Shown here: one piece after another, positions 1,890 through 55,756 of the stretch
Position numbering within the stretch: position 1 is the stretch's first letter
How the letters are laid out: each line of letters begins with the position of its first letter
Source: a gamma proteobacterium SCGC AAA076-P13
Lineage (GTDB): Bacteria; Pseudomonadota; Gammaproteobacteria; Magnimaribacterales; D2472
Assembly (NCBI GenBank): GCA_000384935.1
Contig: ARRA01000001.1
Span: 62,001 to 126,000, forward strand
Length of the DNA: 64,000 nucleotides
Reading direction: 5' to 3'
The notes under the pieces: generated by a model
Told to the model about the DNA's origin: nothing
Database searches by the model: none
What the model saw: the letters and a program-made list of their open reading frames with translations, nothing else
Translations under genes and position numbers: made by a program

Positions 1890-1981
1890 TGGCGGAGGGA
1901 GTGGGATTCGAACCCACGGTGCCGATGAAGGCACGACGGTTTTCAAGACCGTTACAATAAACCAGACTCTGCCATCCCTCC
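1890..1981 (-). tRNA. tRNA-Ser(UGA)
   Basis: On the minus strand a 92-base cloverleaf is visible. The acceptor GGAGGGA pairs with TCCCTCC, followed by G and an encoded CCA. The anticodon arm is ACGGT-CTTGAAA-ACCGT, giving anticodon TGA. A long variable arm (CGTGCCTTCATCGGCACG region) marks a class II tRNA, and the T loop is GGTTCGAATCC. Together these identify tRNA-Ser reading UCA-type codons. The thioesterase gene starts 17 bases downstream of the CCA. Confidence 0.97.
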
Positions 1982-2068: not shown

Positions 2069-3367
2069 TTACAAAAGTATGTTGCTAATAGTTTGCTTCA
2101 CGCCATTAATGCCAATGTAAGTTGTGAATAGAGAAAAAATAAAAATTATAATCAGAACACTATTAGTTAGCCATGTGTTTTCATAACCATTCATCAAACT
2201 TTTCTTATTAGTAAGATAAAAAATACTTGTCACCGTTATAGGTAAAATAAGTGAATTAAGTGCCTGAGAAACTATCATTACTAATACAGGTCTAGCATCA
2301 AAAATAGGCACTACCAGACCTAAAAGAGAGATTCCTAATACCATTAATCGAAATTTTAGCAAACTCATATCCCTATCGGTATTTGTGTAATCACAAATAA
2401 GCCAAGGCAACATTAAAACGTTTGGCAGTTGAGAAGATACGCCTGCTGCAATAAGACCAATTGCAAAAATAGAGACAGCCAATGAACCGGCTAATGGTTC
2501 AAGAAGTGTAATCATTTGAGAGGCTTTGGATAAGACCAAACCTTCGGTATGGAGTGAAGCTGCTGATGCTGCCATAATTGATGCACTAATAACGAACATT
2601 AGGCATACAGAAACAATTGCATCATTTCTTTGTTTTTTGTAATCAATTAAAGTCCAGCCAGCTTCCTTAACCAGCGTTGTGCGAATAATAAATAATCCTG
2701 AGAACACAGTTGTACCAACCATTGATGCGATAACAAGAAAAGCGCTTTTATTTGAGTCTTCTAAAACGCCAGGGATGCTTGGCATCAAGCCTCGAAAGAT
2801 ATCAATAGGAGGAGGCATCATTATAAAAAAGTTTGCTATAAAACAGATCGCCATTACTGCAACGATTACTGCTGCACTTCGTTCAAAAAACTGAGTGTTA
2901 CCGTTCCAAAAAATATAATAAACCAAGGATATAAATACAATTGAAAAATAGATAGGCGGAATACCTTCATCAAAAATAGATTTTGACCATTCAGATGATA
3001 TTTCAGCAACTATACCCATAACGCCCATAACGCTTCCGCAGACGCCAGCGGTTAAGGTTATTATAAAAAATAGTCCTAGTGTTGGATGTATGTGCGTTCT
3101 GAATGCGTGAAGAGCTGTTTCTCCTGTGATTAATGTATAGCGGCCATATAGATTGATCATAAAAAAAGTGCAAAGACAGGATATAACAATGGTCCAAAGA
3201 AGGGACATTCCATAATCTGCCCCTGCCTTCGCCATAGAAGTTACACTTCCCGTCCCTATATTAAAGCCAAGTAAAAAAATACCAGGAAGAAATAAAGACA
3301 ATCCAGCTAAAAATCTCTGTTTAAAAGTTTTCATATTAGTTAATTTGGCTGTATTAGTTTTAGTCAT
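2069..3367 (-). CDS. NRAMP-like membrane transporter, non-canonical metal site
   Basis: A 432-residue membrane protein with about 11 helices. Its start, LSLFLPGIFLLGFNIGTGSV followed by KAGADYGMSLLW, aligns with the first helix of NRAMP/MntH metal-ion transporters. The helix-1 DPGN motif that binds the metal is replaced here by NIGTG (36-40). The helix-6 Met-Pro-His site appears as VFSG (221-224) after SMVGTT. Several coordinating residues are therefore missing and the substrate may not be Mn2+ or Fe2+. It is the last gene of the alginate operon. Its ATG overlaps the uxuA stop by four bases, supporting both the start and translational coupling. It may supply a metal to mannonate dehydratase or carry another solute; this is undecided. 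Confidence 0.7.
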   Translation of the reverse strand: MTKTNTAKLTNMKTFKQRFLAGLSLFLPGIFLLGFNIGTGSVTSMAKAGADYGMSLLWTIVISCLCTFFMINLYGRYTLITGETALHAFRTHIHPTLGLFFIITLTAGVCGSVMGVMGIVAEISSEWSKSIFDEGIPPIYFSIVFISLVYYIFWNGNTQFFERSAAVIVAVMAICFIANFFIMMPPPIDIFRGLMPSIPGVLEDSNKSAFLVIASMVGTTVFSGLFIIRTTLVKEAGWTLIDYKKQRNDAIVSVCLMFVISASIMAASAASLHTEGLVLSKASQMITLLEPLAGSLAVSIFAIGLIAAGVSSQLPNVLMLPWLICDYTNTDRDMSLLKFRLMVLGISLLGLVVPIFDARPVLVMIVSQALNSLILPITVTSIFYLTNKKSLMNGYENTWLTNSVLIIIFIFSLFTTYIGINGVKQTISNILL

Positions 3368-4578
3368 AAGGATTTACCAATCTTATCTGAAGATAAAGCT
3401 CTTATTACTCCCCGAATTTCTGCTAAAGCTTTCATTCTTCCTATCTTGGAGTAGCCAGGATTAACAACCTTATGAATATCATCCATCATCAAGTGCCCAT
3501 GATCGGGACGAAAATATATCTCATTATTAACTAACCCATTGGATTTTCTTCTTTTCTCTTCATTAAGCAACTCACTTATTATCTCAACCATATCAACATC
3601 ACCATCTAGATGAGAGGATTCATAAAAAGATCTATGTTCGTTTAGATCAATGCATACATTTCTCAAGTGAGAAAAATGTATACGAGATGCAAATGTTCTA
3701 GCTAGTTCAGGAATATCATTATCTGGTCGGCTACTATAAGTTCCAACACACAATGTCATCCCATTAGATTCGCTCGGCAAGCTATTAAAAAGCATATTAA
3801 GGTCATACTTTGTACAAATAATTCTAGGTAAACCCAGTAAATTTCTAGGTGGATCATCAGGATGGATTGCAAGTTTTACATCTAACATTTCACATCTTGG
3901 AAGTACTTTACTAAGAAAACTAATTAAATTAGAGCGAAGATTTTCAGCAGAAATGTTCTTGTATTTACCAAGCATAGTCTTAAAATCTTTAATATTATAA
4001 GATTCTGTCATTCGCCCGGGCAGGCCAGCAATAATATTATTAGTAAGTTCTTTTCTTTCGAGCTCCGACATTAAGTTAAAAATATCTCTTGCTATTGATA
4101 CATCCTTGTCAGAGTAATCATCTTTTGCATTGTCTCGTTTAAGAATGAATAAATCAAAGGCAGCAAATTTATTATGATCAAAACTAAGAGAATATGCCCC
4201 GTTTGGAAGCTTGTATTTAAGGTCTGTACGAGTCCAGTCAATAACAGGCATAAAGTTATAACATACTGTTTTTATCCCACACTTTGCCAAATTTTCTATT
4301 GATGAAATCCAGTTTTCTATGTAGATATCATTACCAGGAAGTCCCAATTTAATATCCTCATGCACCGGAATACTTTCAACTACCGTCCATGAAAGATTGC
4401 TCTCTCCTGACTCTGTGAATTGAATAAATTTTTGATGATCTTTGATTGCCTCTTCTGACCAAGTTTCCCCGATAGGTATGTGGTGAAGTGCACTGACAAT
4501 ATCGGTTGCACCAGTCTGCTTAATATCATCGATCGTAACTGGATCGTTGGGACCAAACCACCTCCAAGACTCTCTCAT
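3364..4578 (-). CDS. uxuA: mannonate dehydratase
   Basis: UxuA dehydrates D-mannonate to 2-keto-3-deoxygluconate (KDG) in the cytoplasm, using Mn2+ or Fe2+. The 404-residue protein has the family's MxxxWRWFGPNDPV start, the TVCYNFMPVIDWTRTDL segment (104-120), the HPDDPP motif (239-244), CVGTYSSRPDND (277-288), HFSHLRNV (301-308) and FRPDHG (356-361). Length is close to E. coli UxuA (394). The ATG follows the kdgK stop codon with no spacing, and the stop overlaps the NRAMP-like gene, so it is deep inside the alginate operon. Glucuronate isomerase and a recognisable UxuB are absent from the window, so the source of mannonate is unclear. Confidence 0.93.
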   Translation of the reverse strand: MRESWRWFGPNDPVTIDDIKQTGATDIVSALHHIPIGETWSEEAIKDHQKFIQFTESGESNLSWTVVESIPVHEDIKLGLPGNDIYIENWISSIENLAKCGIKTVCYNFMPVIDWTRTDLKYKLPNGAYSLSFDHNKFAAFDLFILKRDNAKDDYSDKDVSIARDIFNLMSELERKELTNNIIAGLPGRMTESYNIKDFKTMLGKYKNISAENLRSNLISFLSKVLPRCEMLDVKLAIHPDDPPRNLLGLPRIICTKYDLNMLFNSLPSESNGMTLCVGTYSSRPDNDIPELARTFASRIHFSHLRNVCIDLNEHRSFYESSHLDGDVDMVEIISELLNEEKRRKSNGLVNNEIYFRPDHGHLMMDDIHKVVNPGYSKIGRMKALAEIRGVIRALSSDKIGKSL

Positions 4579-5532
4579 CTAAGATTCATTAGAATTAGCA
4601 CTAAGAGAACTTAAGTTGCTCTTTGGTAATATTGCTCCTTTTGTTTGCACAACTCTTGCTGCCAAAAAGTGCCCCGCCTTACAAGCCTCATCTTGATTTA
4701 ATCCACTAAATCTTGAGGCTAGATAAGCTGCATTGAATGAATCTCCTGCAGCAGTTGTATCAACAACGTCTACAAGATTAGATTTAATATAGACAAACTC
4801 ATGATTTGTAAAAAACATACACCCTTCTTCGCCAAGCTTTATAACAACTTCTTCAACTCCAAGTTTGGTAAGTGAAATCACCGTTTCTTTTTCTGACTGG
4901 AAGCTAAATAACTCTTTCTCGTCTTCAAAGGTTGGAAGTGCGATGTTCGTTAAACGATACATTTCTGTATAGGCAGCTTGTGCTGTTTCTTCATCTGGCC
5001 ATAAAGCTGGGCGGTAGTTGCTGTCAAAAATAACCTTCCCACCTTTATTTTTATAATTGGCAAGTAAGCGAAATAAAACACTACGGGTTTCCTTATTCAT
5101 AATAGCCAGGGTGATTCCAGATAAATAAATATAATTAAAATTAATCAGTTCAAGGAGCGCCTCTTCAATTGATGTTTTGTTGTTAAAGAATTCTCTTGCA
5201 GCAGAGCTACTTCTCCAATACATAAATGAACGCTCACCCTCATCGTCAATATCAATCATGTAGAGCCCAGGTAGTAAACCAGGAGTTCTTTTAACCAACG
5301 AGCAGTCAATACCCTCTCTTTCCCAATTCTTAATAAGCCAGTTGCTATTTGAATCAAGGCCTAATGCTGAAACATAACTAACATCAATGTCGTGCCTAGA
5401 TAAATATATAGCTGTATTCAATGTATCTCCTCCAAAAGATAATTTTCTTAGGTTGTTATCATTGCCTATAGAACTTTCTTCATTTGAAAGTTCCAGCATA
5501 CATTCACCTAAAATAGCTACAGAGATAGACAT
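4579..5532 (-). CDS. kdgK: 2-keto-3-deoxygluconate kinase
   Basis: A PfkB-family sugar kinase that phosphorylates KDG to KDPG with ATP. The 317-residue sequence closely follows E. coli KdgK: AILGECMLELS at the start, FGGDTLNTAIYLSR (33-46), LPGLYMIDIDDEGERSF, YWRSSSAAR, IFDSNYRPALWP, and the PfkB signature DTTAAGDSF (258-266) with catalytic Asp264. It abuts uxuA and follows the SDR gene by 31 bases in the same operon. KDG made from alginate (through DEH) and from mannonate (through UxuA) would both pass through this enzyme before aldol cleavage by KDPG aldolase, which is not encoded here. Confidence 0.95.
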   Translation of the reverse strand: MSISVAILGECMLELSNEESSIGNDNNLRKLSFGGDTLNTAIYLSRHDIDVSYVSALGLDSNSNWLIKNWEREGIDCSLVKRTPGLLPGLYMIDIDDEGERSFMYWRSSSAAREFFNNKTSIEEALLELINFNYIYLSGITLAIMNKETRSVLFRLLANYKNKGGKVIFDSNYRPALWPDEETAQAAYTEMYRLTNIALPTFEDEKELFSFQSEKETVISLTKLGVEEVVIKLGEEGCMFFTNHEFVYIKSNLVDVVDTTAAGDSFNAAYLASRFSGLNQDEACKAGHFLAARVVQTKGAILPKSNLSSLSANSNES

Positions 5533-5563: not shown

Positions 5564-6316
5564 CTAAGAGAAGACCAAACCCCCATTGGTGTCTAGATTA
5601 ACACCTGTTAAAAAAGATGATTCATCAGACAATAAAAAGCTAACTGTTGTTGCCATTTCATCTGGCCTACCTTCTCGTTTTAAAGGAGTAGCATTAGCTA
5701 CATTAGATCTGACTTCGTCTTTAGTAAAAGTGTCATGAAATGTTGTGGCGATCATTCCGGGGCATAGTGAATTAACACGAATGCCCTGCTGTCCAAGTTC
5801 TTTAGCCATTGATCTGGTGAATGTAATTACTGCCCCCTTCGAAGCTGCATAAGCAGATGCTCCAGGACCGCCGCCATCTCGCCCTGCTTGAGAAGCAAAA
5901 TTAACAATGGAAGAGCCACTCGTCATATAAGGTATCACCTGTTGGGTAGCTAAAAATGTTGAATTGAAGTTTAATTGGACTACTTTATTTAAAAAGTTTT
6001 CATCCATTTCATCTATTTTTTTTCTCTGAACCAGGCCTCCAGAAATATTAACTAAGCCATGAATTTCATTTCCATAATGAGATATAGTTTTTTCAACAAG
6101 AGCAACCACATCATCCTTGTTTGTCATATCACCTTTTAAAATAAAAGCATCTGAATTGTTATTTTTAAGCTCTTGATTTAGAGATTGTGCTTGGTCTTCA
6201 CTCCCAAAATAATTTATAGCAAGCTTTGCACCATGATTAGCCAGATCTAATGAAACGGCTCTACCTATATCCCTTGCTCCACCTGTAATTATTACTACTT
6301 TATCTTTAAATTTCAT
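5564..6316 (-). CDS. SDR oxidoreductase, probable DEH reductase
   Basis: A 250-residue short-chain dehydrogenase. The cofactor loop TGGARDIGRA is at 11-20 and the catalytic triad is Ser142, Tyr156 and Lys160 (YAASK). The usual NNAG is NISGG, and the C-terminus has the FabG-like LTGVNLDTNGG. Alginate lyase systems need an SDR that reduces 4-deoxy-L-erythro-5-hexoseulose uronate (DEH) to KDG. The place of this gene between the uronate transporter and kdgK makes that the best call. A fructuronate or mannonate dehydrogenase role paired with UxuA is the main alternative. A clear AAGGAG ribosome site supports the start. The function assignment rests mostly on context. Confidence 0.75.
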   Translation of the reverse strand: MKFKDKVVIITGGARDIGRAVSLDLANHGAKLAINYFGSEDQAQSLNQELKNNNSDAFILKGDMTNKDDVVALVEKTISHYGNEIHGLVNISGGLVQRKKIDEMDENFLNKVVQLNFNSTFLATQQVIPYMTSGSSIVNFASQAGRDGGGPGASAYAASKGAVITFTRSMAKELGQQGIRVNSLCPGMIATTFHDTFTKDEVRSNVANATPLKREGRPDEMATTVSFLLSDESSFLTGVNLDTNGGLVFS

Positions 6317-6357: not shown

Positions 6358-7653
6358 TTATCTTTTTTTTAGTGGCTTGATTCTTGGAATTAGTATCAAG
6401 ACACTTAACATGGCAATAACTGCTAAAGCGGCACCAATCACAAACGCTGGAGCATAGTTCCCACCAGATGTTAGCCAAGGGACCAGTGATGTTAAAGCAA
6501 CCGCACCAAGCTTGGCAGCTGTTCCAGAGTACCCTGCAAGAGTAGCAATAGTCTTACCTCCAAACATATCACTAGGTAAAGTTTGAACATTACCTATAGA
6601 AGTTTGAAATCCAAATAAAATTACAGCCATTATTATTACTGCAGTCGAAGGGCTGCCGGGATTAGACATGGCTAGTAATGAAGGAAGCATTATCAAGCAA
6701 CCAAGACCAATAACTACTTTACGTGTTCTGTTAACTGACCAGCCTGCTTTTATTCTATTTTGAGCTAATAAGCCTCCAAACCAGGCTCCAAACATAGCAC
6801 CAACGTAAGGGACCCATCCGTAAAGACCAATAGTCTTAACATCCATTCCATATACTTCGAATAAATAGATAGGTATCCAGAAAACAAATAACCACCAAAT
6901 AGGATCAATTGCAGCAGAAGCTATTATTACTCCCCAGCTTTCTTTCCGAGATAGTAATTCCCTTGTGTTGGGATTATAGTCATCCAATATTGATTCATCA
7001 TCGACATCAACTCTTATTTGACCGTCTAGAATGTATTTTTTTTCCTCTTCAGTAATCCATGGGTGTGTCGAAGGAGGAGATTTAACTAAGAATAACCAAG
7101 GAATCAACCATAAAAAACCGAAGACTCCAACAATTATAAATATTAACTTCCAGCTAAAATATATAGTTAAAAATGCAATCAAAGGTATTGAAATAATACC
7201 TCCAATTGCAGCACCTGAATTAAAAACACCTTGAGCAAATGCCCTTTCTTTTGTAGGAAACCATTCAGCATTTCCTTTTGTAGCTCCAGGCCAGTTCCCA
7301 GCTTCAGCTAAACCTAAAATAGATCTAAAAATTGCAAAACTTATTAAGCCTCTTCCAAAAGCATGAAGCACTGTTGCTAATGACCATAAACTAATAGATA
7401 TAGCAAACCCAATTCTTGTTCCGACCCAATCAAATATCTTGCCAAAAATTGCCTGACCGAAAGAATATGAGAAAACAAATACTACTGATATGACAGCAAA
7501 TATTTGTTTGTGTTCATCATTTGTTTTGTCAGGAAATAAGTCACTTGCAATTTCTGGCCATAGAACTCCAAGTGCTTGCCTATCTATATAATTAATAACT
7601 GTTGCTAATGCTATTAAACTGACAACCCACCATCTTAAATTATTTATTTTCAT
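6358..7653 (-). CDS. MFS hexuronate/DEH transporter, ExuT-like
   Basis: A 431-residue, 12-helix major facilitator of the anion:cation symporter (ExuT/GudP) group. It begins MKINNLRWWVVSLIALATVINYIDRQALG, whose NYIDRQ segment is a hallmark of this group. Other marks are SFGQAIFGKIFDWVGTRIGF, the NWPGATKGNAEWFPTKERAFAQG segment between helices 4 and 5, and GGIISIPLIA. The ORF track adds 47 residues upstream, but these read antisense-like out of the cupin gene. The ATG at 7653 has a strong GGGAGAGG ribosome site and overlaps the kdgF end by 14 bases. It likely imports unsaturated or keto uronates across the inner membrane. Confidence 0.88.
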   Translation of the reverse strand: MKINNLRWWVVSLIALATVINYIDRQALGVLWPEIASDLFPDKTNDEHKQIFAVISVVFVFSYSFGQAIFGKIFDWVGTRIGFAISISLWSLATVLHAFGRGLISFAIFRSILGLAEAGNWPGATKGNAEWFPTKERAFAQGVFNSGAAIGGIISIPLIAFLTIYFSWKLIFIIVGVFGFLWLIPWLFLVKSPPSTHPWITEEEKKYILDGQIRVDVDDESILDDYNPNTRELLSRKESWGVIIASAAIDPIWWLFVFWIPIYLFEVYGMDVKTIGLYGWVPYVGAMFGAWFGGLLAQNRIKAGWSVNRTRKVVIGLGCLIMLPSLLAMSNPGSPSTAVIIMAVILFGFQTSIGNVQTLPSDMFGGKTIATLAGYSGTAAKLGAVALTSLVPWLTSGGNYAPAFVIGAALAVIAMLSVLILIPRIKPLKKR

Positions 7654-8002
7654 TATCCTCTCCCTGAATAAAATCCTCACGATGCGGACTAAAAATATCA
7701 ATAAGTACCCCTTTTTTTCTACAAACAGCTCCATGTAATGCATGAGGTTCAACAAAGAATGAATCTCCAGCACCAAGAATTTGCATCTCCCCATTTATAA
7801 CTACTTCAAATTCTCCACTCTCTACATAACTAATCTGGGTATGGTAATGCTTATGCTCATAACCTATTGCACCTTCATCAAACCATACCTTTACTGCCAT
7901 TAAATCTGAGCCATAGGCTAGTATTTGACGGTTAATACCAATATCAACATTCTCTATTGATTTGGGGTTATGTTTATTAAATACTGTATTCTTTTTTATC
8001 AT
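7640..8002 (-). CDS. kdgF: KdgF-like cupin, uronate linearisation
   Basis: A 120-residue single-cupin protein. Known KdgF enzymes speed the opening of 4,5-unsaturated uronate monosaccharides, released by pectate or alginate lyases, to the linear keto form (DEH). The metal site is visible as His50, His52 and Gln56 in YEHKHYHTQISYVESG and His90 in PHALHG, the H-H-Q-H arrangement of KdgF. Its place directly after the oligoalginate lyase and before the transporter fits processing of the lyase product. No signal peptide is seen, so it acts in the cytoplasm after uptake. General cupins can look alike, so the name rests on motif plus operon position. Confidence 0.85.
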   Translation of the reverse strand: MIKKNTVFNKHNPKSIENVDIGINRQILAYGSDLMAVKVWFDEGAIGYEHKHYHTQISYVESGEFEVVINGEMQILGAGDSFFVEPHALHGAVCRKKGVLIDIFSPHREDFIQGEDNENK

Positions 8003-8020: not shown

Positions 8021-10213
8021 TTAATTTGACTTAACAAACGTGAAGTGACCCTGCCACTCTAGGTTTATATTATCTTCATTTAAATTGTGATTTGATTCCC
8101 AATCACCTTCGCCAGAAATTGCTAATATATATGTATCTCCATTAATAAAATGCAACTTAATTACGTTTTTATTAACAAAATTACTATGTTCTATTTTTAC
8201 AATTGAGCTTTTTGCATTTTTTGTAAACTCAAGCCTTGGGTTGTATTCGCCATGTGTTTCTAGAACAGATACAAAGGTATGGTTTTGTGATGAAGGAACT
8301 CTATGAATTATTAGGTTTTCGTTTCTAAGATTAAATGATTCATCATTAGCACCTATCTGTGAAAATATAAATTTTTCATTAGTGTTACTCATGGTGCTAT
8401 AGGTATAAAACCTGTTGGTATTTAGCCAAGTCATTTGCGACAAGCCATTTTCAAGGGCAACAGTGCCTTTGTTCCATAGATACTCATATCCATTTGACTT
8501 CCCGAGCGCTTCCTGAACTGGGTTGTATTGAATTTTTCCAGAATGAGATATTAAATGGCCTTGATAATGTAAAGGCAGATCATATTGATTTTTATGTTTT
8601 GATTTAATATCAAAAATATCAACAATTAAAGGATGTTCTAAAAAATCAAGATTAATCATAGCCATTGTTCTTGTAAGAACTGAATCCTTATAAGCTCCCA
8701 TGAGCTTTGATGAGGTTATATTTATTAAATCACCCTCCTTAAAAAATAATATCTCTGGAGCAGTTTTTTGAGACTCATGCCAGTCTCCATTAAACTGACT
8801 AGATTCATTTAAAACAACTGTATTATGAGCAATTGTCTGCTTGGCCCATTTGTTATTTTCTGGCAAGTAATGACCACCGTACTTAGCTTCAATATTTAAA
8901 AAACGAGCTGCGCCATAATCGCTAATAATTTCATTATTATTGTCATAAAAAAGCCAATGCATTTTATCAAAATGCCCATGCCCAAGGCCATGAGATGTAT
9001 TTTTCATAACAAGAGCCTGATGTCCTGATTCAAAACCATTTCGAAAAACACTCAGAGCACCCATGTCACCCTCAATACCATCCCTTAGTTGCAGACTTTT
9101 ATATATAAAAGGTTTTTCAAGTTTTGCATCTAGCGCCTTTGCTACATTAAAACCATAACCAGTTAGCAAGAGATGGTTTTGAAGCTTAGCAATAGATAAA
9201 AGACTTGGATCTTTATTAATGTCATATGCTATTGCAACAGAGTGAACTAATTCTATGGTATCTATTCCTTTGTCCTTGATAGCGTCATTGATTGGAAAAA
9301 ATAGTTTGCTATAGCTTAGTTGAATTGTTGTGTAGATAGCTTTTATTAAAGCATTGTCCTTATATTCAAATATTTTTAAATTAGGATCATTGGTATTAAT
9401 TGATTTAGCAAAAATAACAAATGGCAGAAGAGCAAATCTTTGATAATAGGGACCTTCTGCATAGTATCCATCAGGAGAAAATAATTCATCTATTTGTTTA
9501 TAAAATCCTGAATCACCAGATTTATCAAGACCATATAAAGCTTTTGTAACCAGGTCATTGTTATTCAAGGTATATCCAGTCATTCCAACAGCTGAAACAG
9601 CCCAAGTTCCATGGTTATGAATTTTATTAAAAGTCTCTGGCTGCCCGGATGATAAAAAATCTGCCATTGGAATAAGAAGATTTTGCTCAATGATATTTTT
9701 TTCTGAGCTAGACAAAGAACTAATTATCATATCGTAGCCTTGTATAGCATAAAACAACCACATCGCTTCATTTAGACTTTGCCAAAACAAAACACCTGGA
9801 GATTGTTCTTTTCTTTTAGGATGTATACCCAGTGTAGGGTAAATATCGGCGTAAATTAGAAAAATAGATTTTGCGTAATCTAGGTATTTTTTGTTTTCAG
9901 TTATTTGATATAGCAAGCCGAGATCATAGATAAGTTTATAATTACGTTTATGTTGCTCATGTGTAAAGCCTCCACCAGCATCTTTTGGGATTGGAACAAC
10001 TGGAGGGCTATCAATATGCTTGTCAGTCTCTTTAACTAAAGTTACTAATGCTTTTTGGGCTAAAGGAATCTGAGTTATATTCTGAGATATATTTAATATA
10101 TCTTTCTGGGTAATAGCCAAATTCGGATTTAGCTGTTCAGCACTTGCATGCATACTGATTATTAATAAATAGCAAATAAAATTTATTAATGGCTTTCTGT
10201 GATTAAGTTGCAT
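8021..10213 (-). CDS. PL17 oligoalginate lyase
   Basis: A 730-residue exo-acting alginate lyase of polysaccharide lyase family 17. It has a signal peptide (cleavage likely after MHASA, residue 25), an N-terminal alpha-helical alginate lyase domain to about residue 370 and a C-terminal heparinase II/III-like beta domain. Family marks include PIPKDAGGGFTHEQHKRNY (74-92), NHGTWAVSAVGMTG (200-213) and DGYYAEGPYYQRFALLPF. Asn200, His201 and Tyr257 line up with the catalytic Asn201, His202 and Tyr258 that I recall for Saccharophagus Alg17C. It releases unsaturated monomer from oligoalginate, probably in the periplasm. It sits 10 bases after the PL6 gene and 18 before kdgF. Confidence 0.93.
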   Translation of the reverse strand: MQLNHRKPLINFICYLLIISMHASAEQLNPNLAITQKDILNISQNITQIPLAQKALVTLVKETDKHIDSPPVVPIPKDAGGGFTHEQHKRNYKLIYDLGLLYQITENKKYLDYAKSIFLIYADIYPTLGIHPKRKEQSPGVLFWQSLNEAMWLFYAIQGYDMIISSLSSSEKNIIEQNLLIPMADFLSSGQPETFNKIHNHGTWAVSAVGMTGYTLNNNDLVTKALYGLDKSGDSGFYKQIDELFSPDGYYAEGPYYQRFALLPFVIFAKSINTNDPNLKIFEYKDNALIKAIYTTIQLSYSKLFFPINDAIKDKGIDTIELVHSVAIAYDINKDPSLLSIAKLQNHLLLTGYGFNVAKALDAKLEKPFIYKSLQLRDGIEGDMGALSVFRNGFESGHQALVMKNTSHGLGHGHFDKMHWLFYDNNNEIISDYGAARFLNIEAKYGGHYLPENNKWAKQTIAHNTVVLNESSQFNGDWHESQKTAPEILFFKEGDLINITSSKLMGAYKDSVLTRTMAMINLDFLEHPLIVDIFDIKSKHKNQYDLPLHYQGHLISHSGKIQYNPVQEALGKSNGYEYLWNKGTVALENGLSQMTWLNTNRFYTYSTMSNTNEKFIFSQIGANDESFNLRNENLIIHRVPSSQNHTFVSVLETHGEYNPRLEFTKNAKSSIVKIEHSNFVNKNVIKLHFINGDTYILAISGEGDWESNHNLNEDNINLEWQGHFTFVKSN

Positions 10214-10223
10214 ATTTTTATTA

Positions 10224-12548
10224 TTAATTAGAATATTGATATATATTATTTTGCAAAAATGCAGTGTTTATTTTTGAGCTATTTAATTCTTTTATATTGG
10301 TCTTCTCTGTTCCGATAAATTGGTTATCGAAAACTCTGGTGATGGGTTCACCTACAGTATGGGCAATTTTGATACCAGGGCTTTTCAAGAGTTTATTTTT
10401 TTCAATATTAGTAACTTGAACCCCGTGTAAGAGTATCGAGCTTTTAGATTTATTCCTAGAGCCATGACCAACATTCGTTAATGTTGAGTTAGTTAAATTA
10501 AAATGAGGTCCAAAAGTGCTCTCATCTGTACCACCCCTATAAAGACTTACAAGAGAACCGCCAATGTCTTTAAAAATTGAATCAGAAATAGATACATATT
10601 CAGCATTATAGATACCATAATCCTCATACTCTTTATTTAATAAGAGAACAGATCCTGAAATATTCGTAAATTCTGAATTTTTTATAGTAATAGAGTTAGC
10701 AAATGAGCCTTTTGAAGGATTTATAAAATCAAATGAATGATTGATATTTAAATCATATATTGAACAGTTTTCAACTATAAGTTGGTAATTATCTAATATT
10801 GATTTGTGAGTCCTAATTACACTATTACCAGCACTATCTGGCGATTCTGAACCAGAAATCTGAAGCCCTGATAGCTTTAAATTTCCTCCATTTTTTATTT
10901 CAAAAAGATTTCCTCTCTCAAAAAATATTTTTGTATTTTTTGCCTTTGACTTGATTGTTATGGACTTATTAATTTGTAATATTTTGTTAACTGTATATTC
11001 ACCTGGAGCTAAGAGTAAGATATCACCAGATTTGGTAAGCTTTAGGGCATTAAAAATATTATTATCACCTGGCTTAACCTCTATTACATTTCCGGAATCA
11101 AAAGTATCCTCAATTGATGGCTTTGGATACCATTGAACACCAACTTTATCTTTAGTAATGGGATTAAGTGATCTAGAGACCCCTTCTTTAATAAGGATAT
11201 CTTTTGGGTAAAGCAGGTTGTTAGCTAGACGGACATAATCAAAACTAACTGAGTTAAAGCCATCGTTGAATTGAAAATTACTTATTTTATTTATTAAGTT
11301 ATTTGTAAATTTAATACCACTAATGTCATCAAATACCTTGAATGGATCTTTATTATTTTGTTGGTAAATAAGATTATTTTTAAACTCTGAGTTTTTTGGG
11401 ACTGCTGATCTCTCTTGATCACTGCCAGATGCAAAGTGTATATGGTCGGAATTTATTATTGAATTATTTTGAATAATTGAATCCTCGACTTGATGGTACC
11501 TATTAATACTTGAGTTAGGAACGCCATTCATTACCACCAAGGCTCCACCAAATCGATATCCCTTTAGGCCTTCCATGTAATTATTTTTAATTAATTGGCG
11601 TTTATTTATTACCCTAATACCGCCTGTATGATCTTGATTATTGCCAAGAAAAATATTTTCTTCTACTGCAGTATCGTTACCGTGCCTCATGGTCAAAGTG
11701 CCTCGAGATTCGAAGAAGATATTTCCAATAAACTTATTATTACCTGATTTATTTGAAACAATCTCAAGCTCTCCATCACAACGATCAAAAAAATTATTTT
11801 TTACAAGAGTGTGTGATTTAGATAATGAGAAATGGCTTGTTCCTATTCTTAGTGTTTCACCACCATTTGAACCTAGAATTTGGCGGGGTCCAAAATAGTT
11901 ATTTTCAATTATATGATAATTTTCTTGGCTTTCCAGAGTGTTAAGTTTAACTGCTAAAGTTACTCCCTTGTTCTTCTTGCCTTCTAGGTGATTGGAATCA
12001 AAGCGATTATGTTTGCCATAAATTGTGACCCAAGAATCATTCTCTGTTCTTTCTGGGTTATTAAAGTTATCAATAACGACTTGCGTAACTCTTGAATGAT
12101 TAGCAAGCAATAGTTTATTTTGACGGAATTCTATTACAGAACTAGTTGGCGTAAATCCATTTTTAAAAATTAAACCAGAAACAACAAGATGCTCGCCAGC
12201 TATTCTTAAATTTGACTCTCCTGTAATCAGAACATTTCCATTAGTTTGAGATCTTAATGTAATTGGTTTGTCTTTGCTTCCCTGGCCAACAAAAAGAATT
12301 TCAAAATTAGACCAGACACCATCTTTTAAAATAATAGTGTCGCCTGGTTTGACATTTTTAACTCTATCCTCATATTCAAGCTGTGTTGACACTAAAAAAT
12401 CTTCAGCAATTAAATGGTTCAAAGAAAATAAAGTTAAACAAAGAACAATAAAGTTAGAGGATATTGTTTTATTTAGTAAATTCAAAATATATATAAGCCC
12501 ACTTAAATTTTGTATACCAAAGCTATGTAATATAAAGTTTTTTGTCAT
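10224..12548 (-). CDS. PL6 alginate lyase, two beta-helix domains
   Basis: A 774-residue right-handed beta-helix lyase of family PL6 (chondroitinase B/AlyGC type), first gene of the alginate operon. Motifs in order are VKPGDTIILKDGVW (66-79), NGGETLRIGTS (228-238), ELEIVSNKSGNN (260-271) and GTLTMRHGN (283-291). Lys267 and Arg288 are 21 residues apart, the spacing of the catalytic Lys220/Arg241 pair of AlyGC. A second beta-helix starts near residue 490 (VKPGDNNIFNALKLTKSGDILLL), as in two-domain PL6 enzymes. The N-terminus is odd: a signal-like hydrophobic core at 33-48 comes after a 32-residue leader, so an internal non-ATG start (for example TTG at residue 22) is possible. It is exported and cuts polymer or oligomers. 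Confidence 0.92.
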   Translation of the reverse strand: MTKNFILHSFGIQNLSGLIYILNLLNKTISSNFIVLCLTLFSLNHLIAEDFLVSTQLEYEDRVKNVKPGDTIILKDGVWSNFEILFVGQGSKDKPITLRSQTNGNVLITGESNLRIAGEHLVVSGLIFKNGFTPTSSVIEFRQNKLLLANHSRVTQVVIDNFNNPERTENDSWVTIYGKHNRFDSNHLEGKKNKGVTLAVKLNTLESQENYHIIENNYFGPRQILGSNGGETLRIGTSHFSLSKSHTLVKNNFFDRCDGELEIVSNKSGNNKFIGNIFFESRGTLTMRHGNDTAVEENIFLGNNQDHTGGIRVINKRQLIKNNYMEGLKGYRFGGALVVMNGVPNSSINRYHQVEDSIIQNNSIINSDHIHFASGSDQERSAVPKNSEFKNNLIYQQNNKDPFKVFDDISGIKFTNNLINKISNFQFNDGFNSVSFDYVRLANNLLYPKDILIKEGVSRSLNPITKDKVGVQWYPKPSIEDTFDSGNVIEVKPGDNNIFNALKLTKSGDILLLAPGEYTVNKILQINKSITIKSKAKNTKIFFERGNLFEIKNGGNLKLSGLQISGSESPDSAGNSVIRTHKSILDNYQLIVENCSIYDLNINHSFDFINPSKGSFANSITIKNSEFTNISGSVLLLNKEYEDYGIYNAEYVSISDSIFKDIGGSLVSLYRGGTDESTFGPHFNLTNSTLTNVGHGSRNKSKSSILLHGVQVTNIEKNKLLKSPGIKIAHTVGEPITRVFDNQFIGTEKTNIKELNSSKINTAFLQNNIYQYSN
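12508..12521. promoter_or_regulatory. weak operator-like site inside PL6 start region
   Basis: TTTTGTATACCAAA resembles the operator-like palindromes upstream but has a two-base centre instead of three, close to the TTGGTATACCAA type known for UxuR/ExuR. It lies in codons for the PL6 leader. It may be an extra binding site or chance. Confidence 0.3.
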
Positions 12549-12733: not shown

Positions 12734-13471
12734 ATGAAGAATAAAGAAAGGTTATATATAAAAATTTCAAAAAGTATCGCATTGCTTATTAATAATGGTG
12801 AGTTTCCTGTTGGGAGCAGACTGCCAACAGAGAGAGAACTTTCCGAAATATTTAATGTAAGTAGACCAACTATTCGTGAAGCAATAATTGCTCTAGAGGT
12901 AAAGGAAATAGTCTCGATCAAAGCTGGATCAGGAGTTTATGTAGTTGGGAATACTCTTAAGATTGAGGATTTTTCTGGAGATATTAGTGCTTTTGAGCTA
13001 TTGGAAGCCAGAGTGATATTAGAAAGTGAGTCTGCATCACTGGCAGCTAGAATGATAACATCTGATGAAATTGATTTATTACAAGCTTCTCTAGAAAATA
13101 TGAAGACTGAAAATGCGCAATGTTCCAAAGCAGATAGAGAATTTCATACATTAATAGCGCATGGAACACATAACAAAGTCTTACTTAAACAAATTACCCA
13201 TCTCTGGGATTTGCAAGACAATCTAAATCATATCAATCAGAAACGTGAATCAGTTTGTATTGATGAGGATAGGCACTCAAAAATAGCAGATCATGAGGCT
13301 ATATTTGAAGCTATAAAAAATAGAGACTCAAAAGCTGCTAAAAAAGCAATGCAATTGCACTTTACTGATCTATTACATGCTATGCATGAAATTACTGAAA
13401 AGAAAGTTGTTGATGAGGCTAGAAATAAAGCCTTAGATATGAGAAAACGATTTATTATTTCTAATTCTTAA
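12734..13471 (+). CDS. GntR/FCD regulator of the alginate locus
   Basis: A 245-residue FadR/UxuR-like repressor. The winged helix covers about 1-72, with the recognition segment RLPTERELSEIFNVSRPTIREAI (29-51). An FCD sensing domain follows (about 85-225). Its His residues in FHTLIAHGTHN, DHEAIF and MQLHFTDL probably bind a metal that helps hold the ligand. The gene is divergent from the alginate operon, and three palindromes of FCD type lie between them. Its inducer may be a uronate intermediate such as DEH or KDG, by analogy with UxuR/ExuR/KdgR systems; this is inference. A hairpin terminator follows directly. Confidence 0.9.
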   Translation: MKNKERLYIKISKSIALLINNGEFPVGSRLPTERELSEIFNVSRPTIREAIIALEVKEIVSIKAGSGVYVVGNTLKIEDFSGDISAFELLEARVILESESASLAARMITSDEIDLLQASLENMKTENAQCSKADREFHTLIAHGTHNKVLLKQITHLWDLQDNLNHINQKRESVCIDEDRHSKIADHEAIFEAIKNRDSKAAKKAMQLHFTDLLHAMHEITEKKVVDEARNKALDMRKRFIISNS

Positions 13472-13587: not shown

Positions 13588-16533
13588 TTAGAACCTATAA
13601 CTAGCCCCAATTGTAATCCTTCTGTCTGGGATACCAGCAAAACACAAAGGTCCAGATTGACTAACACAGTGTTGGCTTATGCCCTCTTCTGTTAAGTTAA
13701 CTGCTTCTATGCCTATGTTCAGCTTTTCACTAACATCATAGTTAACGCTTGCATTAAGCTGCGCTCTATCTAATGTCCAAACTGGGAAACTAAATGTACT
13801 ACTACCACTTGTATTAGCACCACCAGCAAAGTCATTAGTTCTAAAAGCCTCACGCCATGTATAACGCATTCTTGCTGATAGTTTATTCTTTTCATAGAAA
13901 ACAGTAACGTTGTAAGCATCCTCAGAGAAATCTAAAAGACCTCTATCAATACATACATCACCCAATACAGTTAAACCTCTTCCAGAAGTACAATCTTGTG
14001 TAGATCCACCACTGAAGTCTTGAGTCGTATAGTTAGCAAGAACACCAAAACCAGATGCCCATCCTAATTTTTCTTCAAAACTTGAAAGATCATATTGAAA
14101 TGCAAACTCAAACCCTGATTGAGTTGTAGTATCTGAATCATTTCCAGGCCTTGTAAAGTCAACACACATTCCAGTGGTATTAGGATCACCTAAAACATTT
14201 GGTTGAACAATTGGGTTATATATTCCTCCACCAGGACATGTTGGATCAGTTTCTCTAGCAAATCCATCAGTAGTAGAAGGATCTACAACCAAGAGAGCAC
14301 CCTCAAAGTCCTGTCCAAATATATTAGTTCTATCTTTAGTAAAATAGCCAACACTAGCTACAGCAGCTGGTGCAAAATACCACTCAAAACCAATTTCAAT
14401 AGAATCAACTTCCTCAGGCTCTAATCCAGGATTTCCCAAACTGACAGAAGCATTCTCACTGGTGTTAAAAGTAAAACCAGTATTTAGGTTATTAAACCCA
14501 GGTCTTCTAATGTCTGATGTGTAACCAAAACGAACAAGCATCTCATCATTTAACTCAGCAACAATATTAATTCTAGGTAAGATATAGTCATATGAACCCT
14601 TAGTTGATACTAAACTTCTATCACCACTTGAATTTGCAGGACCATAAGCAACAGAGTCAACCTCAGTATCAACATATCTAAAACCAAAATTACCTCTGTA
14701 TATACCATGTTCAAAGTTTGCTTGAGCATAAAGAGCAGTCGACTCTTCACTTACATCATAGTATGAATTGGTATCAGATTTGATATTCGCAATAGATGGG
14801 CTAGATGGATCATGAGCTATAACAGCATCTTGTAATATCTTTAAAACACCAAATGGATCAGAAAATGATAAGTCAGGATTTATTAGCAAGAAGTTTCTAA
14901 TACATAGACTTCTTCCATCGCCTGAACAAAAGTTTGATGGACCAGGAACTAATAGTTGAGAAAATAAAGAGCCATTAGGGCTATCAACCATTTTACTAAA
15001 TCCACCTATTTTTCCACTAACTTTATCAAATACACTGGACTGTTCACTTGAACGAATACCAAAGTCAACAGTTGTTATTGAATTCCAGTCTAGGTCATAT
15101 GTGAAATCAAGTCTCATGCTTGATTGCTCATTAGTATTTGTATTTCTTCCAATATCAACTTGATCTAATACAACATTATTAGGGTCTAATAAATCAGACG
15201 GTGAAGGTGCATATGCAGAATTAAAATTAACCCCAAATGCTAGAGCACCATCAGAAAAGTCATATATATAAGGAACACAATTATCATTACTACTACCATC
15301 AAGAGGACAATTTGGGTTAATAAAGTTAACAGTTGTATTTAAAGTAGGATTTAGAGTGTCTGAACTAGATTTTGAAATTTCAAATGTAGTGAATAATCTA
15401 TCTCCCTCCAATTCGCCTCTAAATGAAAATACATCAGTATCAGTGACACGTGAGTTAGTTTCACTTGAAAAACGAAGATTTGGATCATCGTCGTCATTCG
15501 CTAAATCTGGAACCAGTTCTCCCTTATAAGCTGCTGGATATCTGCCTGGACCGACACCAAAATCTACATACTCGAAGGCGCTAGGGATACTTATATTCTT
15601 TAATGAGCTAACACCAGAGCCTTGAAGTCTATATTGGTCTCTGCTTCTTTCCTGCTCAGTAATTACCGCATCAAAAGAAAGTGTTAAGTTCTCATTAAAC
15701 GAAGGAGCCCATTCAAATGTTGTAGATATGTTATTAGTTTCATAATCATCATTCTCCTGCTCTTGTAATAAGAATTGAATACCTAGGTATTCTGAAGGAT
15801 CCGATCCTGAAGGAGATGCTATGTTATCTCTGTCAGCACGAGGGCGAAATGAAACTGCTTCTTGTTCAGTAATACTGCCTGTAAATACAAAACCAAAATC
15901 GCCAGCATCACTGGACCATGTATCTCCAAATGCACCTGAAATTCTAGGAAGAGCATCTTCAACACTCAAGCTACTTTCTTCTAATTGGTATCTTAATGAT
16001 CCCAACCTTTCAGATAAATCTAATGGACGTATTGTCTTAAGATTCACAATACCACCAATAGCACCTTCAGTTGTTTTAGCTTCTGGTGATTTAATTACTT
16101 CAAGGGAAGAAATAATAGCAGCATTTACATCTTCAAAACTTATGCCACCTCTTCCGGAACCAGAACCAACTGTTGAAACTCCATTAATCTCTACTCTATT
16201 AGAGTTAGTTCCTCTAATTTGAACGCCGGTACCAACACCAGCAGTTCTTGTAATCTGAACACCGGTAATATTTTCAAGAACCTCAGCAAGATTTTGATCA
16301 GGTAGCTTACCAATGTCTTCGGCTACAATTACTTCAATTAAGTTATCAGAGCTTCTTTTTTGTGCAACTGCACTTGCAAGAGCCGATCTAATTCCTGTTA
16401 CAACAACTTCTTCTACTGCGTCGTCCTTTGAGTCTTCAACAGCTTGTGCTGAGACAGTGAAAGGCACTGTTAATAAAAGACTAAATGCGATGGTTAATAA
16501 CTGTTTAAAATTAAACTTATATATGTTCATCAT
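13588..16533 (-). CDS. TonB-dependent receptor, probable alginate oligomer importer
   Basis: A 981-residue outer-membrane receptor of the Caulobacter/Xanthomonas type. A signal peptide ends near TVSAQA. The TonB box region is EEVVVTGIRSALASAVAQKR, and the plug carries IGKLPDQNLAEVLENITGVQITR followed by GTNSNRVEINGV. The barrel ends with the aromatic ITIGASYRF, as outer-membrane proteins require. In marine bacteria this subfamily often imports glycans. Here it is next to the alginate operon, on the same strand, and has an operator-like palindrome (16626-16640) in its promoter region like those of the operon. The start has two ATGs (MMN), with a GGGGGG-rich ribosome site upstream. The ligand is inferred from context. 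Confidence 0.88.
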   Translation of the reverse strand: MMNIYKFNFKQLLTIAFSLLLTVPFTVSAQAVEDSKDDAVEEVVVTGIRSALASAVAQKRSSDNLIEVIVAEDIGKLPDQNLAEVLENITGVQITRTAGVGTGVQIRGTNSNRVEINGVSTVGSGSGRGGISFEDVNAAIISSLEVIKSPEAKTTEGAIGGIVNLKTIRPLDLSERLGSLRYQLEESSLSVEDALPRISGAFGDTWSSDAGDFGFVFTGSITEQEAVSFRPRADRDNIASPSGSDPSEYLGIQFLLQEQENDDYETNNISTTFEWAPSFNENLTLSFDAVITEQERSRDQYRLQGSGVSSLKNISIPSAFEYVDFGVGPGRYPAAYKGELVPDLANDDDDPNLRFSSETNSRVTDTDVFSFRGELEGDRLFTTFEISKSSSDTLNPTLNTTVNFINPNCPLDGSSNDNCVPYIYDFSDGALAFGVNFNSAYAPSPSDLLDPNNVVLDQVDIGRNTNTNEQSSMRLDFTYDLDWNSITTVDFGIRSSEQSSVFDKVSGKIGGFSKMVDSPNGSLFSQLLVPGPSNFCSGDGRSLCIRNFLLINPDLSFSDPFGVLKILQDAVIAHDPSSPSIANIKSDTNSYYDVSEESTALYAQANFEHGIYRGNFGFRYVDTEVDSVAYGPANSSGDRSLVSTKGSYDYILPRINIVAELNDEMLVRFGYTSDIRRPGFNNLNTGFTFNTSENASVSLGNPGLEPEEVDSIEIGFEWYFAPAAVASVGYFTKDRTNIFGQDFEGALLVVDPSTTDGFARETDPTCPGGGIYNPIVQPNVLGDPNTTGMCVDFTRPGNDSDTTTQSGFEFAFQYDLSSFEEKLGWASGFGVLANYTTQDFSGGSTQDCTSGRGLTVLGDVCIDRGLLDFSEDAYNVTVFYEKNKLSARMRYTWREAFRTNDFAGGANTSGSSTFSFPVWTLDRAQLNASVNYDVSEKLNIGIEAVNLTEEGISQHCVSQSGPLCFAGIPDRRITIGASYRF

Positions 16534-53062: not shown

Positions 53063-54298
53063 ATGGAAATTGCATTTGCATTAGACACATTTTATGCCGT
53101 AATGGCAGGAGCTTTAGTTATGTTTATGGCCGCTGGTTTTACCATGCTCGAAGCAGGACTTGTTCAAAAAAAAGATGTATCAGAAATTGTTACTAAAAAT
53201 ATAGGGCTATATTCCATAGCTTGCATTATGTACTTAGTATGTGGGTTTATGGTTATGTACCCTGGTGATGCAACTATTATAAGTGGTGTTTTACCAGAAT
53301 TTAGCTTAGCTTCACTCGGCTTATCTACAAGCCTAGCCAATGAAGATATTGGTATTCCATATGGAATGGCATATTCACAACAGGCAGACTTCTTCTTCCA
53401 GGTTGTTTTTGTAGCCACAGCTATGTCTATAGTATCAGGAGCTGTTGCTGGAAGAATGAAATTAGTTCCATTCTTCTTGTTTGCAGTTGTTCTAACTGGA
53501 GTTATTTACCCAATTCAAGGATATTGGAATTGGGGAGAAGGATTCCTAAATCAAATGGGTTATTCGGATTATGCTGGGTCAGGTACTGTTCACCTTTGTG
53601 GGGCAGCAGCAGCATTAGCGGTAGCTCTTGTTCTTGGTGCTAGAAATGGCAAATATGCTGCCGATGGAACATCTTTGCCAATGCCAGGCTCTAATATACC
53701 AATGGCAGCATTAGGTGTTTGGATACTATGGTTAGGTTGGTTTGGATTCAATGGTGGTTCCGAATTAGCCATCGCTAGTGAAGGAAGTGCTATAGCTGTT
53801 AGTCAAGTATTCTTAAATACAAATATGGCAGCTTGTGGTGGTGTTGTTACGGCCATTTTCTTAAGTTTGATATTAACTGGAAAAATGGATGTAACAATGG
53901 CAATGAATGGAGCAATTGCTGGTCTTGTTGCTATAACAGCAAACCCGTTAGATCCATCTGCAGGCGTAGCAGTTCTAATAGGAGCATCTGGAGGTGCTTT
54001 AGTTTATTTCTCTATCTTATTTTTTGATAAAAGATTAAAAATAGACGATCCAGTTGGGGCTATATCTGCTCACGGAATAGTAGGAATATTGGGTGTAATG
54101 GTTGTACCGTTTTCAAATGATGCATCATTCGTAATACAGTTCATTGGAGTTGTATCGATTGCTAGTTTTACATTTATTGCTAGCTTAATAACTATATTAG
54201 TTATAAATAAATTCCTACCAATCAGAGCTTCTGATGAAGAACAATATGATGGTTTAGATAAGTCTGAAATTGGAGTCGAAGCCTATCCAGAGTTCTAG
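53063..54298 (+). CDS. amtB: ammonium transporter, first copy
   Basis: A 411-residue Amt channel with 11 helices. The twin pore histidines are in GSGTVHLCGAAAAL and ISAHGIVGILG. The Phe gate region and the signature LWLGWFGFNGGSELA are present. Unlike E. coli AmtB it has no obvious signal peptide and starts MEIAFALDTFYAVMAG, a layout seen in many marine Amt proteins. It is coupled to glnK. The tail (EEQYDGLDKSEIGVEAYPEF) is acidic and matches the Amt C-terminal regulatory segment. Confidence 0.95.
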   Translation: MEIAFALDTFYAVMAGALVMFMAAGFTMLEAGLVQKKDVSEIVTKNIGLYSIACIMYLVCGFMVMYPGDATIISGVLPEFSLASLGLSTSLANEDIGIPYGMAYSQQADFFFQVVFVATAMSIVSGAVAGRMKLVPFFLFAVVLTGVIYPIQGYWNWGEGFLNQMGYSDYAGSGTVHLCGAAAALAVALVLGARNGKYAADGTSLPMPGSNIPMAALGVWILWLGWFGFNGGSELAIASEGSAIAVSQVFLNTNMAACGGVVTAIFLSLILTGKMDVTMAMNGAIAGLVAITANPLDPSAGVAVLIGASGGALVYFSILFFDKRLKIDDPVGAISAHGIVGILGVMVVPFSNDASFVIQFIGVVSIASFTFIASLITILVINKFLPIRASDEEQYDGLDKSEIGVEAYPEF

Positions 54299-54437: not shown

Positions 54438-54472
54438 GCTACTAGAATAGATATATTTTTTTGGGAGATATT

Positions 54473-55756
54473 ATGTTAAAAAAACTTTTACTACTGAATA
54501 TAGGTTTATTTTTTGTTCCTTGGGTTTATGCAGCTGAACTAAATAGTGGCGACACTTCATGGATATTAACCTCAACAGCCTTAGTTTTATTTATGACTTT
54601 ACCGGGCTTAGCTTTATTTTATGGCGGCTTGGTTAGATCAAAAAATGTGTTATCTGTGTTAATGCAATGCTTTGCAATAGCATGCCTGATTTCAGTTTGC
54701 TGGGTTGTTTATGGCTATAGTCTTGCTTTCAAAGGGGATGGCCTTTTTATTGGTAATTTAAGTGCAGCTTTTCTTAATGGTGTAGGCAGAGACTCTCTTG
54801 TTGGGGATGTTCCTGAGACTGTTTTTATTTCATTTCAAATGACATTTGCAATAATAACACCAGCACTAGTAGTGGGCGCTTTTGCTGAAAGAATGAAATT
54901 TGGTGCAATGTGTTTATTTTCTGTTGTTTGGTTTACTTTAGTCTATCTGCCAGCCTGTCATATGGTTTGGGGTGGTGGATATCTGGCAAACCTAGGTGTA
55001 ATCGATTTTGCTGGTGGGCTTGTTGTTCATGCAACCTGTGGGATTGGAGCTTTGGTAATTGCTCTATATCTTGGACAAAGAAATGGGTTTATGAAAACTC
55101 CTATGCCTCCTCATAACCGAACCATGGTCATGATAGGTGCATCAATGTTATGGGTTGGATGGTTTGGGTTTAATGGAGGTAGCGCATTAGCTGCCGATGG
55201 ATCAGCGGGAATGGCAATGCTTGTAACTCATATTAGTGCAGCGGTGGGTGCTCTTTCTTGGATGGCTATTGAGTGGCTAAAATCAGGAAAGGCTACAATT
55301 ATTGGCATAGCAACTGGGATGGTTGCTGGTTTAGCCACAATCACACCAGCATCTGGAACAGTAGGACCAGCTGGAGCTATATTAATTGGTCTATTAGCTG
55401 GAGTTATTTGTTTTTATGCAACCCAGGCTGTTAAGTCATATTTTAAAATTGATGATTCGCTTGATGTATTTCCAGTTCATGGTGTTGGTGGAATGCTTGG
55501 AATAATAATGCTTTGTTTTGTTGGTACTCCAGATGGGTTTTTAGGATCTGGTTCAGCGGGTATATCTGATTCTGGAGTTCTTGATCAACTTATCATTCAA
55601 ATCAAAGGAATACTAATTATATGTACTTGGACTGCTATAGCTACACTATTTACTTTAAAAGTAATTTCATTTGTAACCGATATTAGGGTTTCTTCAGAAG
55701 ATGAAGAAATAGGCCTAGATATGAGTGAGCATAATGAACAAGGCTACAACTTATAA
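54473..55756 (+). CDS. amtB: ammonium transporter, second copy
   Basis: A 427-residue Amt channel of the classical type, with a signal peptide (MLKKLLLLNIGLFFVPWVYA) as in E. coli AmtB. It has MTLPGLALFYGGLVRSKNVLSVLMQCF, the pore His in GLVVHATCGIGAL and PVHGVGGMLG, and LWVGWFGFNGGSALAADG. The ORF track uses a TTG inside the GGGAG ribosome site; the ATG at 54473 is the proper start. It has its own sigma-54 promoter, so the two transporters can be expressed in different amounts. It overlaps the convergent acyltransferase by 13 bases. Confidence 0.95.
   Translation: MLKKLLLLNIGLFFVPWVYAAELNSGDTSWILTSTALVLFMTLPGLALFYGGLVRSKNVLSVLMQCFAIACLISVCWVVYGYSLAFKGDGLFIGNLSAAFLNGVGRDSLVGDVPETVFISFQMTFAIITPALVVGAFAERMKFGAMCLFSVVWFTLVYLPACHMVWGGGYLANLGVIDFAGGLVVHATCGIGALVIALYLGQRNGFMKTPMPPHNRTMVMIGASMLWVGWFGFNGGSALAADGSAGMAMLVTHISAAVGALSWMAIEWLKSGKATIIGIATGMVAGLATITPASGTVGPAGAILIGLLAGVICFYATQAVKSYFKIDDSLDVFPVHGVGGMLGIIMLCFVGTPDGFLGSGSAGISDSGVLDQLIIQIKGILIICTWTAIATLFTLKVISFVTDIRVSSEDEEIGLDMSEHNEQGYNL

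Follow-up and report, generated by a model that had tools for sequence, protein, structure and literature searches.

The last gene of a compact bacterial operon, located at positions 2069–3367 (minus strand) of the 64,000-nucleotide stretch of DNA analyzed here (the window), encodes a 432-amino acid protein, with an ATG start, that is labelled in databases as a metal importer, has lost the metal-binding residues of that family and lies, in bacteria of several phyla, beside genes for the catabolism of acidic sugars found in seaweed and in other glycans; its solute is probably a sugar acid and not a metal. Judging from sequence comparisons, we give a probability of roughly 0.6 to the reading that an NRAMP scaffold has here been turned into a sugar-acid importer of the inner membrane that no longer handles metals, the solute of this particular subclade probably being a hexuronate, e.g., D-mannuronate. 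The preliminary description of this gene left two options, either the transport of Mg2+/Mn2+ through a different site or that of a different solute, for instance an organic acid; residues, family tree and genomic context support the latter, and the former is the less supported of the two.

An NRAMP-Like Gene at the End of an Alginate Operon

The Pfam Nramp family (PF01566) covers the whole ORF (E = 1.3e-56, 192.7 bits against a cut-off of 29.8), in agreement with the reading frame and the NRAMP membership first proposed. Furthermore, the comparison with NRAMP structures suggested at that time, carried out with an AlphaFold model based on a 65-sequence alignment (pLDDT 82.5, pTM 0.82), returned the NRAMP fold: the top Foldseek matches of the model are DraNramp, EleNRMT and BfraNramp, followed by APC amino-acid carriers such as AdiC, with TM-scores of 0.63–0.77 to the DraNramp and BfraNramp structures and 0.76 to EleNRMT. 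The protein is an NRAMP-fold member of the PF01566 superfamily.

The operon lies entirely on the minus strand. It opens with a PL6-type lyase of the Chondroitinas_B family (10224–12548) and a PL17-type oligoalginate lyase with Alginate_lyase and Hepar_II_III_C domains (8021–10213), and continues with a KdgF-like cupin, recognized from its ORF and a family scan (7640–8002), an MFS transporter of the galactonate/hexuronate type (6358–7656) and an SDR oxidoreductase similar to DEH reductases, assigned from its position in the alginate operon (5564–6316). A PfkB-family kinase comes next (4579–5532), whose best NCBIfam match, KDG kinase (KdgK), stays under the cut-off (350 bits against 400), and then uxuA, encoding D-mannonate dehydratase (3364–4578; PRK03906, 527 bits, cut-off 191; TIGR00695, 476 bits, cut-off 200), which precedes the NRAMP-like gene. 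The mechanical ORF call for the MFS gene, 6358–7794, begins inside the cupin gene, and a start near 7656 is likely, as judged from the overlap of the two genes. A divergent GntR-type regulator (12734–13471, plus strand), identified by sequence and position, and a TonB-dependent receptor (13588–16533, minus strand), identified by sequence and with homologs at related loci, adjoin the operon. The "sugar-acid operon" of the preliminary description can thus be kept and narrowed: given PL6, PL17, the KdgF-like cupin, the SDR and the KdgK-type kinase, it is an alginate-utilization operon, to which UxuA contributes the conversion of D-mannonate to KDG. The translational coupling to uxuA proposed there agrees with the sequence as well: the TGA stop of uxuA and the ATG of the NRAMP-like gene share four base pairs (ATGA) in the window sequence, and an overlap of the same kind is found in seven further orthologs, near-identical genomes not counted.

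In the window genome (1.3 Mb, 87% complete) this is the sole PF01566 gene. A near-identical gene exists in the single cell SCGC AAA168-P09, which we take to be SAR86. Given that only two of the 61 genomes of the host family carry the NRAMP-like gene, its horizontal gain is likely. A tRNA-Ser gene (TGA; 1890–1981, minus strand) lies just downstream, and its place at the operon end, together with the distribution in the family, suggests that an alginate operon acquired by transfer may have integrated here. We also note that a contig titled Cellvibrionales bacterium UBA4435 (L035) encodes an NRAMP-like protein 100% identical to that of the SAR86-like window genome, so its title or binning may be wrong. 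Elsewhere in the window, two tandem genes (53063–54298 and 54461–55756, plus strand) appear, by their sequence, to encode ammonium transporter-like proteins.

Loss of the Metal Site

Residues were aligned with Escherichia coli MntH as a guide and DraNramp numbering, including 101 clade relatives. Codons 36–41 (N-I-G-T-G-S; 3245–3262, minus strand) correspond to the unwound segment of TM1, where GTGS stands for the canonical DPGN (D56 to G38, N59 to S41); the replacement of DPGN was therefore correctly noticed in the preliminary description, but its "NIGTG" register is shifted by two, the true counterpart being G38-T39-G40-S41. Codons 219–229 (2681–2713, minus strand) span the unwound TM6 to TM6b and present T219 (for A227), F222 (M230), S223 (P231), G224 (H232) and R229 (H237), so that the Met-Pro-His of helix 6 is indeed replaced, as described, by a VFSG-like stretch. 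Adding V113 for D131 and V116 for E134, the metal ligands D56, N59 and M230 and the proton relay D131, E134 and H232 have all been replaced, and the only side-chain metal ligand retained is Gln378 of TM10.

These changes are shared by the relatives. D56 to Gly, N59 to Ser and H237 to Arg occur in 101 out of 101 sequences, and G38, T39, G40, S41, T219 and R229 are invariant across the 101 clade members. In the same set, the M230 position carries F, A, G or S and the H232 position mostly G, A or V, never Met or His, while E134 is changed to V or I and D131 to V, L, S or C. The invariance of GTGS and of the Arg in every sequence means that the residue changes are not due to chance. Moreover, at the level of sequence position, no conserved acidic substitute ligand is present in unwound TM1/TM6 or in the middle of TM3, TM8 or TM10 of the 101 relatives; a relocation of the canonical ligands, named in the preliminary description as contrary to its claim, is accordingly rejected.

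Mutation of D56 abolishes metal transport in DraNramp, whose proton path runs through D56, E134, H232 and D131 (PMC6398981); this Asp has been described as universally conserved in SLC11 (PMC8806188). Nevertheless, the loss of the Asp alone is not proof of a non-metal substrate, because two pxpA-linked NRAMP-type proteins likewise lack it in the alignment. Two more PF01566 groups devoid of the TM1 Asp, with the motifs GAGD/GGVGG and GPGT/VVPYN, were encountered (L013, L014, L015, L018, L020, L202; L005, L006, L009, L116–L121, L165–L175), L005 and L006 lying near a cysC-like gene.

Maximum-likelihood analysis of 74 PF01566 proteins places the GTGS proteins in one clade (100/100) and the DPGN/MPH MntH proteins in a separate one (100/100); NRMT forms a third group and the two pxpA-linked proteins a distant fourth, the deeper joins having long branches and not being relied on. 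Among five plasmid NRAMPs included as references, four are DPGN/MPH MntH types; the two pxpA-linked plasmid proteins serve as stand-ins for Bacillus subtilis YcsG. The window protein falls outside the classical MntH clade, the other placement that the preliminary description had held to be incompatible with its claim, and scores 88 bits against a cut-off of 430 with the MntH model. Membership in MntH or NRMT is ruled out by this separation. None of the Slc11/MntH features (D56 with N59, M230 with H232, D131 with E134, clade or cut-off) is present, nor is the NRMT signature DxxG-TxxA/T, as the TM1 Asp is absent. Orthology with YcsG is ruled out too, the GTGS clade lying apart from the pxpA-linked proteins and having annotated neighborhoods rich in uronate genes.

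Recurrent Linkage to Sugar-Acid Catabolism

A scan of 84,980 genomes yielded 165 relatives, the best 80 of which were kept as orthologs (65–73% identity, plus two near-identical). These best 80 are spread over six phyla: Pseudomonadota, Bacteroidota, Kiritimatiellota, Lentisphaerota, Verrucomicrobiota and Planctomycetota. Around them, the 442 genes located at most three positions away include 102 of the D-mannonate pathway, against 4 among the 338 genes at six or more positions, with an odds ratio of 25 that, like the Fisher value, is indicative only, the loci being related and not independent. The 102 genes comprise 45 UxuA, 5 ManD, 12 UxuB, 7 SDR mannonate oxidoreductases of the PRK08277 type, 25 PMI-like and 8 AGE proteins. 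Linkage beside uronate genes, which the preliminary description had asked about as a constant trait, is thus largely but not wholly the rule: 65 of these best 80 of 165 have a D-mannonate-pathway gene within four genes and 15 do not, some of the latter on short contigs, and 18 of 21 sister loci agree.

Each step of the pathway appears in two non-homologous forms, namely UxuA or ManD for the dehydratase, UxuB or the PRK08277-type SDR for the reductase, and a PMI-like or AGE protein for the isomerase. All three steps are found together in 17 loci, e.g., L048 (UxuA, PMI-like, UxuB, NRAMP) and L089 (PMI-like, SDR, NRAMP, UxuA). The PMI-like partner (364 amino acids; L088, 13376–14470, minus strand, and similar genes in 26 of 80 loci) belongs to the type I phosphomannose isomerase family under the ManA cut-off, and an AGE-family protein takes its place in Alphaproteobacteria; both are candidate D-mannuronate (or mannose) isomerases. 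UxuA itself may be upstream, downstream or divergent, and its presence on the ortholog tree requires 17 changes, a figure inflated by partial loci and weak branches. UxuA is missing from the locus in 32 genomes, 21 of which encode it at another site and 6 more of which have ManD above the cut-off, the background being 26 UxuA-bearing genomes among 118 Bacteroidota not matched for lifestyle. Since alternative families fill each step and UxuA or ManD occurs elsewhere in most of these genomes, the linkage follows the reaction and not one metal enzyme. A coupling specific to UxuA is too narrow a description, as PMI-like, AGE, ManD and SDR contexts occur.

The sister proteins, 36–44% identical and with the same GTGS and Arg, come from Bacteroidota and a few other groups. 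One sister subclade lies in alginate loci with PL6, PL7, PL17, KdgF and DehR, one member being beside DgoK and an aldolase; another has a beta-glucuronidase nearby (616 bits, cut-off 544) or GH88-like enzymes upstream, and one of the GH88-like loci also encodes uronate isomerase (UxaC). The 18 sister loci that fit sugar-acid use do so through alginate, glucuronidase, GH88-like or sugar-acid genes; L186, L190 and L193 do not. These loci provide support beyond the subclade from which the idea arose. Hence the linkage to uronate/aldonate catabolism expected of a sugar-acid permease recurs in both orthologs and sister clades.

Proposed Function and Alternative Explanations

In amino-acid carriers of the APC superfamily, a GSG/GTG motif holds the substrate carboxylate. 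By analogy, the metal site would have been rebuilt for a carboxylate through the loss of the Asp, the glycine-rich G-T-G break of TM1 and the gain of Arg229 in TM6b, and transport would follow the alternating-access mode of other LeuT-fold carriers. This subclade would most likely carry D-mannuronate or a close hexuronate, as the chemistry shared by its loci is aldose-ketose isomerization of a manno-sugar, reduction to D-mannonate and dehydration to KDG. In members other than the window protein's host, a PMI-like or AGE-type isomerase followed by UxuB or an SDR mannonate oxidoreductase would lead from D-mannuronate to D-mannonate, UxuA or ManD would yield KDG, and KdgK would phosphorylate it.

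In the window, the step to D-mannonate would perhaps fall to the operon SDR, and the MFS transporter would handle DEH, the unsaturated product. Given the symmetry of D-mannitol, D-mannonate should also arise directly from D-mannuronate by reduction at C1; as a DEH reductase is known to oxidize D-mannonate at C6 (PMC6011931), the SDR could join mannuronate to mannonate with neither isomerase nor UxuB. Indeed, UxuB, PMI-like and AGE proteins had no match in the window genome (87% complete), which fits an SDR-only route, and this genome probably lacks the isomerase/UxuB route. Lyases should release saturated D-mannuronate only in minor amounts; this minor yield, the GH38 genes near some NRAMP-PMI loci and the case of Formosa sp. 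L2A11, whose complete genome carries an NRAMP-PMI pair and in which neither UxuA nor ManD was found, are weak points of the D-mannuronate reading. More tentatively, and as an idea that could well fail, the GTGS/TM6b-Arg clade of six phyla might constitute a hexuronate permease family, whose mannonate-linked subclade (PMI-like/AGE, UxuB/SDR, UxuA/ManD) would mark an undescribed route for saturated D-mannuronate beside the DEH route of alginate use.

The main rival, which we regard as unlikely, holds that the protein imports divalent cations (Mn2+, Mg2+ or other) through a rebuilt site and is co-expressed with UxuA and the remaining metalloenzymes of the pathway to provide them with metal. UxuA needs Mn/Fe, Gln378 of TM10 is retained, and the NCBIfam equivalog model NF037982 (Nramp divalent metal transporter) accepts the window protein (77 against a cut-off of 50) and its orthologs, so that automatic annotation labels them as metal transporters despite the lost metal site. 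However, the binding region of the 101 relatives includes no acidic ligand in any sequence, and the neighbors swap to ManD, which uses Mg, and to AGE, UxuB, SDR, beta-glucuronidase and GH88, with other or no metal needs, so the linkage tracks a metabolite. Metal importers can sit in catabolic operons, as reported for the operon-encoded NRAMP-like Mn importers MumT, from a urea operon with urea carboxylase (PMC5050338), and the 5-oxoprolinase-linked YcsG/MntG (PMC10448178); but even in the Mg2+ transporter EleNRMT the Asp is still essential, and transport is strongly compromised in its absence (PMC8806188).

A carrier of neutral manno-sugars (D-mannose or a mannoside), with the PMI-like and AGE proteins acting as mannose isomerases, would account for the two-gene NRAMP-PMI units that have no UxuA nearby, for the GH38 genes in L077, L084, L104 and L107, and for the best match of the AGE protein, a D-mannose isomerase under the cut-off; it seems quite improbable, as it leaves unexplained the UxuA, ManD, UxuB and SDR mannonate genes of most loci and the presence of sister subclades beside alginate, glucuronidase and UxaC genes. 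There is even less to be expected from a non-importing role, whether as a transceptor/regulator or in the export of surplus sugar acid or a pathway by-product: an MFS carrier is already encoded in the window operon, and TRAP or SSS carriers lie beside the gene in other loci, yet the Pfam scan finds no extra regulatory domain, the transporter core is highly conserved, and in some loci, e.g., L196, the NRAMP-like protein is the only permease observed in the vicinity of the catabolic genes.

The NRAMP family is regarded as one of metal transporters, and under the NCBI model these proteins receive the name of divalent metal transporter. Should the clade carry sugar acids, this annotation would be wrong in many marine genomes, and alginate and glucuronate use would gain an inner-membrane step that has been missing. 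It would also be a second case, besides PxpT of Corynebacterium glutamicum, of an NRAMP scaffold in the service of an organic acid, and the disputed substrate of the Asp-less NRAMP relatives would become directly testable.

Comparison With Known Systems

PF01566 comprises Slc11, an outgroup devoid of Slc11 features, and NRMT (Cellier, PMC9606685). With the Slc11/NRAMP importers (E. coli MntH, DraNramp, Bacteroides fragilis Nramp) the window protein shares the family, the NRAMP fold and the TM10 Gln, but D56, N59, M230, H232, E134 and D131 are all replaced and the clade is separate. EleNRMT is among its best PDB matches (59 bits by sequence, TM-score 0.76), and both have Thr at the A227 position (PMC8806188); NRMT, however, retains the TM1 Asp in its DxxG-TxxA/T signature (PMC8806188), where the window protein reads GxxS-TxxF.

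Other parallels concern genomic context. In the literature searched, outside subscription journals, we found no proposal of a uronate role for NRAMP, and nothing joining NRAMP with mannonate or alginate use beyond one figure legend: an NRAMP-annotated gene in an alginate locus of the alginolytic systems of Alteromonas sp. 76-1 (PMC6431674, Fig. S3 legend), comparable by description and labelled there as a metal-ion transporter with no analysis. MumT of Acinetobacter baumannii, also set beside our protein by description, is a low-similarity NRAMP of a catabolic operon, but is reported to accumulate Mn (PMC5050338). YcsG/MntG and PxpT are likewise NRAMP-family proteins of catabolic operons, and the TM1 Asp is changed to Gly in the two pxpA-linked proteins aligned. 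The role of this type is disputed, since Mn import has been reported for YcsG/MntG (PMC10448178) and growth of C. glutamicum on 5-oxoproline depends on the related PxpT (PMC13274462). Unlike the window clade, the two pxpA-linked proteins carry GPGF instead of GTGS, have no TM6b Arg and are distant on the tree; and the YcsG/PxpT type is linked to pxpABC, whereas the window clade is linked to uronate genes.
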